Virus record (IMG/VR): IMGVR_UViG_3300001450_000134
Location: 1 to 32,944 of that record
DNA from: a virus
Reading direction: 5' to 3' (one strand)
DNA length: 32,944 nucleotides
Shown here: positions 25,175 through 32,506 of the stretch, piece by piece
Numbering within the stretch: the stretch's first letter is position 1
How the letters are laid out: every line of letters starts with the position of its first letter
Notes under the pieces: model-generated
Database searches by the model: none
The model's input: the letters and a program-made list of their open reading frames with translations, nothing else
Told to the model about the DNA's origin: nothing
Position numbers and translations under genes: made by a program

Positions 25175-26092
25175 TTAACTTTCTTTCGCTAGTTTAGCAA
25201 AATAACTTAATGTATCATCTTCATCAGATGATTCTTCAACTGAAGGAGTACTACCCATTGCTTCCGCGTCGGATGTAGTCATACCTACAGATGGAGCTGA
25301 TACTGAATTCATCATTGGCTCTGCCGCTGCAGAATGACCCGCTACGACTCCAAGTACTTTATTCAACTTCATTGATAGCTCATCATAAGTTTTATAGTTT
25401 TCAGGTGTTAAGAAATCCTGTAAAGAATACAGTCTATCATAAACTTCGGTTAACCTAGATTCATCTCCATCATGCAAAGCACTTGGTGAACTGAATTCTG
25501 ATTTATCGTAGTTTACCCAACCTTCTACTTTTCTGATTTTAATTTTAAAATCAGCACCTTCCCAGAAATCGTAAGGATTTACTGGATTTTCATCAGCGAA
25601 TTGAGGTTGCATAACATCCATGACTTTATCAAAGATTTTTTTACCAAATTTGTAAAGGAATACTTTCCCTTCATTCTCTGGATTTGATGGGTCAGAAACG
25701 ACTAGCACATTACTTACATAATGTAGCCTTCTTTTTCTATCCCTAGCAGTTGCTTTATCTTCGTCTCTACCTGAGTTCCAAAGAACAGAGTTTGACTCTG
25801 ATACTGGGTCCTCTTGTCCAATGGACGTTAAAGAGTTTTCGATATACCATAAGCCAGTTGGTCCCTTGAATCCATGGTCCCAATACCTTACCCAAGGTAA
25901 GTCCTCACCATCTTTCGCTGGTAAGAATCTGATTACGGCATAACCGTTTCCTGCTTTATCTCTTGTAGGCTTCCAAAATCTGTCATCCGCATAGGAATTA
26001 GTTTCTGGTTTAGCTGAAGAGACTGCTTCTGCTGCTTTTACGAGTTTGTCGATTGACGAGCCTCGCATGCTCTTTAGATTTTCTAATGACAT
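25175..26092 (-). CDS. 32: Single-stranded DNA-binding protein gp32
   Basis: 305 residues (T4: 301). The N-terminal LAST-like basic segment (SLENLKSMRGSSIDKLVKAA) drives cooperativity; the core has WKPTRDKAGNGYAVIRFLPA, VLVVSDPSNPENEGKVFLYK and FGKKIFDKVMDVMQPQF; the C-terminus is acidic (EESSDEDDTLSYFA) and should recruit gp59 and polymerase. The zinc ligands of T4 gp32 (His64, Cys77, Cys87, Cys90) are missing, and the protein has no cysteine. I chose the ATG at 26092 because GGAG lies 9 bases upstream; an ATG 15 bases earlier overlaps that site. The gene has its own promoter inside gp59 and a strong terminator. T4 gp32 represses its own translation through an unstructured AT-rich leader, and the leader here is similarly AT-rich. 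Confidence 0.95.
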   Translation of the reverse strand: MSLENLKSMRGSSIDKLVKAAEAVSSAKPETNSYADDRFWKPTRDKAGNGYAVIRFLPAKDGEDLPWVRYWDHGFKGPTGLWYIENSLTSIGQEDPVSESNSVLWNSGRDEDKATARDRKRRLHYVSNVLVVSDPSNPENEGKVFLYKFGKKIFDKVMDVMQPQFADENPVNPYDFWEGADFKIKIRKVEGWVNYDKSEFSSPSALHDGDESRLTEVYDRLYSLQDFLTPENYKTYDELSMKLNKVLGVVAGHSAAAEPMMNSVSAPSVGMTTSDAEAMGSTPSVEESSDEDDTLSYFAKLAKES

Positions 26093-26093
26093 T

Positions 26094-26144
26094 TTATATT
26101 TCTCCATATTTACAATGTATTACTGAATTATCCACTTTATTCAT
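26094..26144 (-). CDS. Possible 16-codon leader peptide of gp32
   Basis: In the gp32 leader an ATG at 26144 opens MNKVDNSVIHCKYGEI and stops one base before the gp32 ATG (TAA-A-ATG). It has no Shine-Dalgarno and begins only 11 bases after the -10 box, so it would be near-leaderless. It overlaps the gp32 ribosome site and could couple or gate gp32 translation. It may equally be chance in a short leader. Confidence 0.3.
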   Translation of the reverse strand: MNKVDNSVIHCKYGEI

Positions 26145-26155
26145 AATATAGTTAT

Positions 26156-26184
26156 ATTATACCACATTACGTGGCATTTGTAAA
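26156..26184 (-). promoter_or_regulatory. Sigma70-type promoter for gp32
   Basis: Minus strand TTTACA (26179-26184), 17-base spacer, TATAAT (26156-26161), preceded by CC as in the other promoters of this family. It sits across the last codons of gp59. Predicted start near 26149 gives a leader of about 57 bases. Confidence 0.85.
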
Positions 26185-26763: not shown

Positions 26764-27026
26764 AGAGGTAGTTTATTACCTCTCTTAGCTTTGATTAAAT
26801 GTAAGCCTGAAGCTTCTTCTTCAATCTTTTGCTTTAAGGAATCTGTTAAGAGTTTTTTAAGATTTTTATAATCCATACCTCTTTGTTCTACTACGTAAGA
26901 TGCTGCATCGATATATGACATATTGTTATTTGCTACAAGATGCTCTACTGCTGCAGAGAATCTCTTCTTTGTCATTATCTTCTGTTCTACTGGATTATCT
27001 TTATCCGACAAACTCTTCACCTTCAT
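26760..27026 (-). CDS. 33: Late transcription coactivator gp33
   Basis: 88 residues from the ATG at 27026. FSAAVEHLVANNNMSYIDAA with LKQKIEEEASGLHLIKAK corresponds to T4 gp33 EKMVEEFGMSYLEATTAF and IIEKIQSEAID. In T4 it binds the RNA polymerase beta-flap and, through a hydrophobic C-terminus, the sliding clamp; the end here is NKLPL, a plausible clamp tail. With gp55 it would activate the TATAAATA promoters of this window. The start is uncertain: ATG 27026, GTG 27020 and ATG 26975 are all poor in Shine-Dalgarno, and the first two lie within the peroxiredoxin gene. The stop overlaps the gp59 start. Confidence 0.85.
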   Translation of the reverse strand: MKVKSLSDKDNPVEQKIMTKKRFSAAVEHLVANNNMSYIDAASYVVEQRGMDYKNLKKLLTDSLKQKIEEEASGLHLIKAKRGNKLPL

Positions 27027-27522
27027 TCCATGCACAACCTGTAAGACCACCTGCTTGTAAAGCTTTTAATGTTCTTAATACCTCTTGTGCGTTTCTTCCT
27101 GTATCTAAAGCGTTAATAGATACATGTTGTACAATTCTATTCTTATCAAAGATAAACGTTGCTCTATATGGAACACCTTCTTCTTCGTTAACAATACCTA
27201 GTTGATGTGATAGTCCTAATCCACAATCAGCAGCTAAAGTATGACTGATATTACCAATCATATTATTATCTTGTTTCCAAGCCAATTTACAGAACTCGTT
27301 ATCTCCACTTATTCCAATAACATTAGCATCATCGACTAAACAGTCAAACCCTGCTATTTCTGTTGGACATATAAAGGTAAAGTCCTTAGGATAGAAATAA
27401 ACTACGCTCCACTGTTTTTTCTGTGGCATATAGCTTTCGTTTACTTCAACTCTCACAAATTCATTTTTTTCATTGATTCCCTGTAGTGAGAAGGCAGGGA
27501 ACTTTTCTCCGACTGATAGCAT
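27001..27522 (-). CDS. 2-Cys peroxiredoxin (AhpC/TSA family)
   Basis: 173 residues. It should reduce H2O2 and organic peroxides in the cytoplasm. The PxxxTxxC active site is PKDFTFIC with peroxidatic Cys52; Arg120 (GVPYRATFIF) completes the catalytic triad; the resolving Cys163 is in GLTGCAWNEGEEFVG, so this is the typical dimeric 2-Cys type. Start and expression are well supported: TAGGAGG six bases before ATG, the TAG being the stop of the gene before it. It lies between gp33 and a conserved phage gene in the replication operon, under the early promoter at 28768-28796. No frameshift or loss of key residues is seen, so it is probably active. It is a host-derived auxiliary gene. The reducing partner is not in the window. 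Confidence 0.95.
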   Translation of the reverse strand: MLSVGEKFPAFSLQGINEKNEFVRVEVNESYMPQKKQWSVVYFYPKDFTFICPTEIAGFDCLVDDANVIGISGDNEFCKLAWKQDNNMIGNISHTLAADCGLGLSHQLGIVNEEEGVPYRATFIFDKNRIVQHVSINALDTGRNAQEVLRTLKALQAGGLTGCAWNEGEEFVG

Positions 27523-28661: not shown

Positions 28662-28760
28662 TTATATATATTGCAATGCGAAAGCTATCCACAAAGGTAG
28701 ACAGATTATCGCAGTTATTTTAAATGTGTGTTTATTCCAAAATTGTATTAATTGTTTCAT
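28662..28760 (-). CDS. 32-aa single-TM microprotein, leaderless
   Basis: ATG at 28760 opens MKQLIQFWNKHTFKITAIIC and goes on with a hydrophobic LPLWIAFALQYI to a stop at 28662; the stop is directly followed by the AGGAG of the next gene. One membrane helix covers about residues 13-31. The ATG stands seven bases after TATAAT, so it coincides with the expected transcription start and no Shine-Dalgarno is possible. The layout equals that of the gene starting at 29790. It could be a real membrane peptide or a leader ORF. Confidence 0.55.
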   Translation of the reverse strand: MKQLIQFWNKHTFKITAIICLPLWIAFALQYI

Positions 28761-28767
28761 AATGTAT

Positions 28768-28796
28768 ATTATACCATAGTTTCGTTCAAATGTAAA
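28768..28796 (-). promoter_or_regulatory. Early promoter of the gp32-59-33-peroxiredoxin operon
   Basis: Minus strand TTTACA (28791-28796), 17-base spacer ending ACTATGG, TATAAT (28768-28773), then ATACATT and ATG. An A/T tract (AAAAATAATC) precedes the -35 box and may act as an UP element. Nearly the same sequence occurs at 29798-29826. Confidence 0.9.
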
Positions 28797-28807
28797 CGAT
28801 TATTTTT

Positions 28808-28867
28808 AAAAAAGGCGGCTGAGCCTCTGCGGGTGATAAGGAGTCGCGTTGATGAGACCCAGCCTTT
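28808..28867 (-). terminator. Structured element with T tract ending the small-gene operon
   Basis: Minus strand: AAAGGC (28867-28862) pairs with GCCTTT, and GGGT (28860-28857 as ACCC on plus) pairs with its partner at 28831-28834, enclosing about 22 bases; a small GGC-TCA-GCC hairpin lies near the base, followed by six T. It starts five bases after the stop of the 57-aa gene and ends just before the next promoter. A terminator is the simplest reading. The larger, multi-branched shape and higher GC than its surroundings leave room for a small RNA. Confidence 0.55.
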
Positions 28868-28872
28868 AATCA

Positions 28873-29046
28873 TTAAGTATTATCTCCGTCCCTATACTTG
28901 ATGTTTGATTTATCGAATATTTTTCTTTTAGTTTCCCATGGTAAAGGAATTGTTCTACCATGTTTTTGTTCGTTAACTACATGAGCAGACATAAAAACAA
29001 TAAATGCTCCGAATATACATAGTACTATTCCAAAAAATGTTTCCAT
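28873..29046 (-). CDS. 57-aa single-TM protein
   Basis: METFFGIVLCIFGAFIVFMS forms a membrane helix at residues 4-20, followed by a cytoplasmic-type basic tail (EQKHGRTIPLPWETKRKIFD). GAGGAG lies 7 bases before the ATG, which overlaps the stop of the 118-aa gene (TAATG). It is the last gene of a four-gene overlapping chain. Function unknown; many T4-like phages have such small membrane proteins among early genes. Confidence 0.75.
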   Translation of the reverse strand: METFFGIVLCIFGAFIVFMSAHVVNEQKHGRTIPLPWETKRKIFDKSNIKYRDGDNT

Positions 29047-29402
29047 TAGTTTCTCCTCATGTTTGCGATATCAGTTGCTTCTTCTTGAGAAATAACTGGT
29101 ACAGCGTTTGATTTATGCATAGTGGCAATACCTTTTACTAAAGTGCCAGTATACATCATTGTTTCTTTTTTAGTACAATCGCCTTTAATCTCATGGTAAT
29201 TACCATTTTTCATATATTCTTCCATTATAGAATTGTATTGTACTGCTTGTCTTTCTCTTATCTTCTCTAATTGAGATTGCTTTAAAGCTACTGATTGAAA
29301 AGCTACAGGTTTCTTTTTAACTCTGTTAGCTGCATGGTTCTTTCTCTTTCTCCCACAAGGTGAATACCTTAATGAACCCATATAAAAACTTGTTACTGCC
29401 AT
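29046..29402 (-). CDS. Unknown basic protein, 118 aa
   Basis: The N-terminus (YMGSLRYSPCGRKRKNHAAN) is strongly basic, followed by RVKKKPVAF and a helix (LEKIRERQAVQYNSIMEEYM). Two cysteines (SPCGRK, GDCTKK) are far apart, so no zinc finger. The basic character suggests nucleic-acid or RNA-polymerase contact, which is inference only. GGAGG lies nine bases upstream inside the preceding 43-aa gene, and ATG overlaps its stop. I do not recognise the family. Confidence 0.8.
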   Translation of the reverse strand: MAVTSFYMGSLRYSPCGRKRKNHAANRVKKKPVAFQSVALKQSQLEKIRERQAVQYNSIMEEYMKNGNYHEIKGDCTKKETMMYTGTLVKGIATMHKSNAVPVISQEEATDIANMRRN

Positions 29403-29533
29403 TACTTAGGTCCTCCATTATGACCAATCATGGTCTTTGCTTTTTGCTTTTCTCTCCATGCTAGGAAATGAATTGCGACTTCTCTTGTTGTGTGAGTTAA
29501 AGTACTCACTGGACTTCTTTTAGTTTTTTTCAT
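29402..29533 (-). CDS. 43-aa basic microprotein
   Basis: MKKTKRSPVSTLTHTTREVA, then IHFLAWREKQKAKTMIGHNGGPK and stop. The end encodes NGGP partly because its codons GGA GGA serve as the ribosome site of the next gene. The ATG overlaps the stop of the 86-aa gene (ATGA) and its own stop overlaps the next ATG (TAATG), so it is locked into the chain, which supports it being real. Function unknown. Confidence 0.7.
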   Translation of the reverse strand: MKKTKRSPVSTLTHTTREVAIHFLAWREKQKAKTMIGHNGGPK

Positions 29534-29790
29534 AATTTTTCTATCTGTTTTAATATTCTGTCGACCTGTGGGTCATTTAGATGCCCTATAACATCATTCG
29601 TTACTTCGGTTGTATAATCCAGTGAGCCATCAGCATCTAACACTGCGAGCTCCCATAGACCTTTGTCATAACCATACGAACCTTTATGTTTAATAACACT
29701 TGCTCCATAACCATTAGGGAATTGATATACTTTTTGTATACCTCCATTAAAGTCATTAGTTTCTTTTAAGTGTTTTTGTTTGTAATTCAT
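29530..29790 (-). CDS. Conserved small phage protein, 86 aa, leaderless start
   Basis: MNYKQKHLKETNDFNGGIQK, FPNGYGASVIKHKGSYGYDK, GLWELAVLDADGSLDYTTEV, then NDVIGHLNDPQVDRILKQIE. The FPNGYGAS ... GLWELAV pattern is a small-protein type I associate with many marine and enteric phages, without known function. M1 is the only methionine, and the codons before it back to an in-frame TAG contain no ATG, GTG or TTG, so the start is certain. It stands seven bases after TATAAT, with no Shine-Dalgarno. It is the first gene of the chain 86-43-118-57 aa. Confidence 0.88.
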   Translation of the reverse strand: MNYKQKHLKETNDFNGGIQKVYQFPNGYGASVIKHKGSYGYDKGLWELAVLDADGSLDYTTEVTNDVIGHLNDPQVDRILKQIEKL

Positions 29791-29797
29791 AATGTAT

Positions 29798-29826
29798 ATT
29801 ATACCATAGTTCTACGCAAATGTAAA
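29798..29826 (-). promoter_or_regulatory. Early promoter with start codon at +1
   Basis: Minus strand TTTACA (29821-29826), 17-base spacer ending ACTATGG, TATAAT (29798-29803), then ATACATT and ATG. An A/T tract precedes the -35 box. Identical to the promoter at 28768-28796 at almost every position apart from the middle of the spacer. It overlaps the region just after the stop of the 90-aa gene, with no terminator between. Confidence 0.9.
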
Positions 29827-31501: not shown

Positions 31502-31530
31502 ATTATACCATACTTTTGAGCAAATGTAAA
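31502..31530 (-). promoter_or_regulatory. Early promoter of the six-gene small-protein module
   Basis: Minus strand TTTACA (31525-31530), 17-base spacer ending AGTATGG, TATAAT (31502-31507) and ATACAT. The A/T tract AAAATAATCC precedes the -35 box. Predicted start near 31494 leaves a short leader with a normal ribosome site, unlike the promoters at 28768 and 29798. Confidence 0.9.
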
Positions 31531-32477: not shown

Positions 32478-32506
32478 ATTATACCCTAGTTGGGAGCAAA
32501 TGTAAA
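32478..32506 (-). promoter_or_regulatory. Early promoter of the phosphatase module
   Basis: Minus strand TTTACA (32501-32506), 17-base spacer ending CTAGGG, TATAAT (32478-32483) and ATACC. The -35 side reads CCTTTACATTTGC, as at 29821 and 31525. The leader has a normal AAGGAG site. Confidence 0.88.

Follow-up and report, generated by a model that had tools for sequence, protein, structure and literature searches.

A promoter and a start codon are fused in the DNA analyzed here, and the site is very probably one case of a recurrent class of leaderless genes that uncultured marine T4-like phages express from sigma70-type, T4-early-like promoters. The window, by which we mean the whole 32,944-nt stretch that was analyzed (IMG/VR record IMGVR_UViG_3300001450_000134), is a virus fragment from a T4-like myophage. 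It encodes gp32, the nearest relatives of its baseplate gp6 belong to the marine phages Melnitz, Mosig, and HTVC008M (~42%), and Rfam and tRNA scans of it gave no matches. Comparison of sequences makes leaderless expression well supported through the fixed spacing between promoter and ATG, the bimodal distances from promoter to first ORF, the contrast in Shine-Dalgarno (SD) sequences, the near-exclusive use of AUG, and the start used by SD-led homologues. The gene at issue encodes an 86-aa protein, and its start region is composed as follows.

29821-29826, minus strand: -35 element TTTACA
29798-29808, minus strand: extended -10 element TATGG-TATAAT (TATAAT at 29803-29798), separated from the -35 element by a 17-nt spacer
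29791-29797, minus strand: 7-nt discriminator ATACATT; the 6-7 nt gap is kept in 15 homologous pairs
29790-29788, minus strand: ATG of the 86-aa gene, directly after ATACATT
29530-29790, minus strand: 86-aa ORF, PHROG 4074, with a putative leaderless start at ATG 29790

An earlier note on this DNA had described TTTACA, a 17-nt spacer, TATAAT, seven bases, and then ATG, and every one of these elements is present on the minus strand between 29826 and 29788. From the end of TATAAT to the ATG is 7 nt, and counted from the second base of TATAAT, an A, the distance is 12 bp. Sigma70 polymerase usually initiates 7-8 nt after the -10 element; the transcription start is expected at T29791 or A29790, and the predicted leader of the 86-aa mRNA is 0-1 nt rather than the ~20 nt or more, with an SD, of T4-type early genes. 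The site instead has the geometry of TA-led leaderless bacterial genes, in which the -10 box is about 10-12 bp from the start codon (Zheng et al. 2011, PMC3160421). The note also held that this ATG must be the start, which the reading frame bears out: the ORF contains a single Met, an in-frame TAG lies at codon -8, and no ATG, GTG, or TTG occurs between that TAG and the start. Other starts, upstream or internal, were sought and none is in frame. The gene has no SD, again as described, in contrast to the AGGAG or GGAG found before most neighboring early-region genes. A GGAGGT within codons 16-17 was considered as a hidden SD and set aside, as no usable start follows it.

Homologues of the 86-aa gene were retrieved at 80 loci. 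The earlier note had proposed comparing the spacing across related phage loci, and in 15 of the 16 distinct homologues with a promoter just upstream the gap between TATAAT and ATG is 6 or 7 nt, a value that stays fixed despite differing first codons and promoter spacer. Homologues with a longer leader or an SD had been named as evidence that would count against a leaderless start, and such cases exist. L030 is the exception among the promoter-bearing homologues, with a 31-nt gap, and the operonic homologues L010, L014, and L019 are without the promoter, and in them the same Met is preceded by AGGA or something similar. The claim for the 86-aa gene is not refuted by these loci because none of them has the fused promoter. 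The SD-led operonic L010, in fact, starts at the Met aligned to the window's ATG at 29790, and because operonic SD-led homologues use this same Met the start codon is supported independently of the promoter. Transcription starting a few bases farther upstream would give a leader of 1-5 nt and an mRNA that is functionally near-leaderless. The gaps of sister genes, which range from 6 to 11 nt and include NrdA with its short leader and gap of 7-11 nt, are compatible with this variant, but the 6-7 nt gap of the 86-aa family agrees with initiation right at the A of the ATG, and we regard such a leader as unlikely here.

The surroundings of the promoter raise the question of whether the gene is instead expressed mainly by read-through from the upstream operon (promoter 31530), through coupling or re-initiation, with the adjacent promoter weak or secondary. 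A distance of 46 nt separates the upstream gene's stop (29836) from the ATG at 29790, so that the intergenic space amounts to roughly the promoter alone, and no terminator was found between this gene end and the promoter at 29826. Read-through transcripts may therefore also carry the 86-aa gene, and the promoter-less homologues do sit inside operons. However, the 46-nt gap holds a near-consensus promoter whose fixed spacing is kept in relatives, and read-through RNA would offer no SD, whereas the operonic homologues have AGGA. Read-through as the main route is thus highly improbable, and leaderless expression from the adjacent promoter remains the preferred reading.

The claim that the 86-aa gene is the first of an early module stands in part. 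It does head an operon, which extends from 29790 to 28873 and has four genes (86, 43, 118, and 57 aa) that overlap at their ends, and its early status is presumed from the sigma70-type promoter only. The rest of the unit is arranged as follows.

29402-29533, minus strand: operon gene 2, 43 aa, ATGA overlap and no SD here (coupled)
29046-29402, minus strand: operon gene 3, 118 aa, phrog_27048, GGAGG SD here
28873-29046, minus strand: operon gene 4, 57 aa, GAGGAG SD, TAATG junction
28808-28864, minus strand: intrinsic terminator closing the operon, 11-bp stem, 26-nt loop, T-run

The terminator (-19.8 kcal/mol, z -2.6) is close to the next promoter (28796), and it was missed by a consensus terminator scanner that allows loops of up to 8 nt. 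Relatives show that the fused start is not tied to one gene of this operon. A homologue of the 43-aa gene in L184 is itself leaderless with a 7 nt gap, the 118-aa family is leaderless at 7 nt in L034, L035, L038, and L041, and among the 86-, 43-, and 118-aa genes the fused start is found on whichever lies first behind the promoter in a given relative. As for the 86-aa protein, members of PHROG 4074 occur in phages of many hosts, and its AlphaFold2 model is confident (pLDDT 94). Comparison of this model with the PDB gave no match to a solved structure, and all relatives found are likewise phage proteins of unknown function. What the protein does is immaterial to the case for a leaderless start.

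The scanned 9 kb contains no more than five promoter matches at the 11/12 consensus level. They form one family on the minus strand, with -35 elements starting at 32506, 31530, 29826, 28796, and 26184. The four besides 29826, with the ORF behind one of them, are listed here.

28768-28796, minus strand: the other ATG-fused promoter, TTTACA-17-TATAAT, with ATACATT-ATG as at 29826
28662-28760, minus strand: 32-aa hydrophobic ORF MKQLIQFWNKHTFKITAIICLPLWIAFALQYI, predicted to be leaderless, behind the 28796 promoter
31502-31530, minus strand: same-family promoter with conventional leader and AAGGAG SD, gene start 31466, an internal contrast
32478-32506, minus strand: same-family promoter with conventional leader and AAGGAG SD, gene start 32444, an internal contrast
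26156-26184, minus strand: same-family promoter before gp32 (start 26092), with an ATG 11 nt after TATAAT

The leaders behind the 31530 and 32506 promoters are ~28 nt long and carry AAGGAG, which is the T4-type combination of leader and SD. The 32-aa ORF ends in a TAA that shares bases with the AAGGAG SD serving the following gene (ATG 28653, phrog_11903). This small ORF is kept in L001 and L007, the latter having a different variant of the downstream gene. The ATG behind the 26184 promoter opens a 16-aa uORF (MNKVDNSVIHCKYGEI; window 26094-26144, minus strand) that ends just before the gp32 start at 26092. Two relatives, L096 and L188, retain MxKVDNSVIxCKY of this uORF, which is possibly linked to translational control of gp32.

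To look at the promoter irrespective of any ATG, the pattern TTTACATTT-N9-TATGR-TATAATATA was searched in viral contigs, yielding at least 79 sites after removal of near-duplicates; the sampled promoters are a subset of those in the collection. Among the 79 matches listed, the first ORF begins at 6-8 nt in 23 cases, at 9-11 nt in 5, at 12-21 nt in 6, and at 22-45 nt in 37. The distances are bimodal and form two classes, not a continuum. An SD precedes none of the 28 genes at 6-11 nt and 29 of the 37 at 22-45 nt, again among the matches listed. The AUG preference that characterizes leaderless genes is seen as well, with ATG at 6-8 nt in 28 of the 79 matches listed and GTG or TTG there in 2. These counts bear on the idea that the ATG is placed by chance, the consensus continuing as ATACATWTA in AT-rich DNA that yields an occasional ATG. 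Copies with an SD leader often have ATA at the same place, one mutation from ATG, as this idea would have it. When the leaders were circularly shifted (5000 shifts), however, ATG fell at 6-8 nt 8.3 times on average (sd 2.7, maximum 19), and the observed 28 is a 3.4-fold excess among the matches listed. Moreover, most of the ORFs behind these ATGs are long and conserved, and it is exactly in this class that the SD is missing, which leaves a chance origin extremely unlikely. The same pattern gave 6, 10, and 5 matches in G001, G002, and G004, respectively, while the reversed pattern, run as a control, matched nowhere in any record. Over these whole contigs, promoter-linked ORFs starting at 6-11 nt number 9 of 26 (G001), 9 of 20 (G002), and 5 of 10 (G004).

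Cultured relatives were considered as possible carriers of the same leaderless habit, and this was set aside: HTVC008M, Mosig, and Melnitz have one to three promoter-linked ORFs each at 6-11 nt, and T4, Syn9, and P-SSM4 have none. T4 early promoters combine a TTTACT or TTTACA -35 element, a 17-nt spacer, a TGTGG or TATGG extended -10, and TATAAT, and the window promoters match this description. The difference lies in what follows, as the ORF-linked T4 sites within 40 nt have gaps of 25-40 nt, most with an SD, and none is at 6-21 nt. The one T4 match to the search pattern is not linked to a promoter and ORF in the whole-genome distance analysis.

The genes concerned are diverse. Among the matches listed, the first ORFs behind the promoter fall into at least 73 families, of which at least 25 have leaderless members and at least 15 occur in both states. 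The leaderless genes include DNA polymerase (phrog_262), UvsY, a polynucleotide-kinase-like phosphatase, and phrog_624; late sigma factor gp55, clamp gp45, an AAA ATPase, bS21, and phrog_11903 are SD-led. The earlier note's suggestion of a distinct expression strategy thus gains comparative support as regards leaderless use, and it proves broader than claimed, with about 25 families involved and a second site in the window itself (the 28796 copy). In the gp45 and gp55 families (L223, L214) an ATG near the 5' end is often followed at once by GGAG, with the real start ~13 nt downstream; this form with both uAUG and SD may represent an evolutionary link from one class to the other. The SD-led bS21 (PF01165) is at L215:4517-4786 on the plus strand behind the same promoter family, with relatives in G002 and G004. 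Each of the three large contigs examined apparently carries a bS21 gene, and a link between phage bS21 and altered translation initiation is possible.

The mechanism that we propose would begin with recognition of the T4-early-like extended -10 promoter by the host sigma70-type RNA polymerase. Transcription would start 7-8 nt past TATAAT, at the A of the start codon or one base before, and the mRNA, with AUG as its 5' end, would be read in the leaderless mode, there being no SD that the transcript could include. 70S ribosomes bind mRNAs with a 5'-terminal AUG, a position in which this codon is strongly favored over other start codons (PMC9031893). The earlier note's further idea, that leaderless use favors 70S initiation under infection, is speculative. 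The remaining operon genes would be reached via translational coupling or their own SDs, and the unit would end at the intrinsic terminator. Promoter-start-codon fusion would coexist with ordinary promoters followed by a leader and SD. A bolder proposal, which we offer as speculation of low probability, is that one early promoter type feeds two translation classes, replication and recombination genes being mostly leaderless and regulatory genes SD-led, and that phage bS21 shifts host ribosomes toward the leaderless phage mRNAs during infection.

Leaderless translation has precedents. The lambda cI (PRM) mRNA is leaderless, and its 5'-terminal AUG is read by 70S ribosomes without an SD. E. coli 5'-uAUG mRNAs combine a 5'-terminal AUG with an SD (PMC4965119) and resemble the gp45 and gp55 families. 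These are single cases or leadered host mRNAs, whereas here the arrangement recurs over a class of genes within one phage group. The TA-led genes and the -10-adjacent ORFs of Deinococcus-Thermus (Zhong et al. 2025, PMC12340547) share a -10 element close to the start, no SD, and a transcript expected to begin at the AUG. They differ in that the present genes are phage genes with a strong -35 element and extended -10, accompanied by SD-led genes from the same promoter family in one genome. Thermus phage phiYS40 is the closest in kind as a phage with many leaderless mRNAs, in its case middle and late ones, with reported shifts in host IF2/IF3 and a host phylum rich in leaderless genes (PMC3594737). 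The promoters of the window group, by comparison, are sigma70-type and presumably early, in marine T4-like phages. Leaderless genes and phages that rely on them (phiYS40) are therefore already known. Systematic, gene-specific, and conserved use in marine T4-like phages, including replication genes, appears to be unreported; a literature search for leaderless T4-like or early phage genes found no report, with many subscription papers outside its coverage.

If this reading is correct, the start codons of a phage gene class, DNA polymerase included, can be fixed by the promoter, and SD-based gene finders could misplace such starts. The arrangement points to a reliance of marine T4-like phages on leaderless initiation, a process that has received very little study in their hosts. 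The fused start also saves ~25 nt per gene in compact genomes. Finally, the same families being leaderless and SD-led under one promoter type constitutes a natural experiment, which makes the reason for the choice of mode testable.

The host is approached through one gene. An AhpC-like peroxiredoxin encoded at window 27001-27522 (minus strand) has 69-74% identity to SAR86 chromosomal proteins and at most ~50% to those of other bacteria among the best matches, L282 excepted. Judged by this single gene, SAR86 may plausibly be the host or the source of the gene. A host-wide leaderless habit in SAR86 was considered and rejected: in a sample of SAR86 genomes, TATAAT-ATG pattern counts were roughly equal to the reversed control, and a 230-kb SAR86 sample had no excess of TATAAT at leaderless distance from ATG. 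In Deinococcus, by contrast, the arrangement is host-wide. With no such excess in the sampled SAR86 DNA, the leaderless class would be a phage trait if SAR86 is the host, and efficient leaderless translation in that host is for the same reason taken as an assumption. The excepted match, L282, is contig JAAXIF010000105.1 (121 kb), filed under a Sphingobacteriales genome; it was dropped as host evidence because phage-like genes adjoin its match. With its lysozyme and phage peroxiredoxin genes, L282 is probably a misbinned relative of the window phage.
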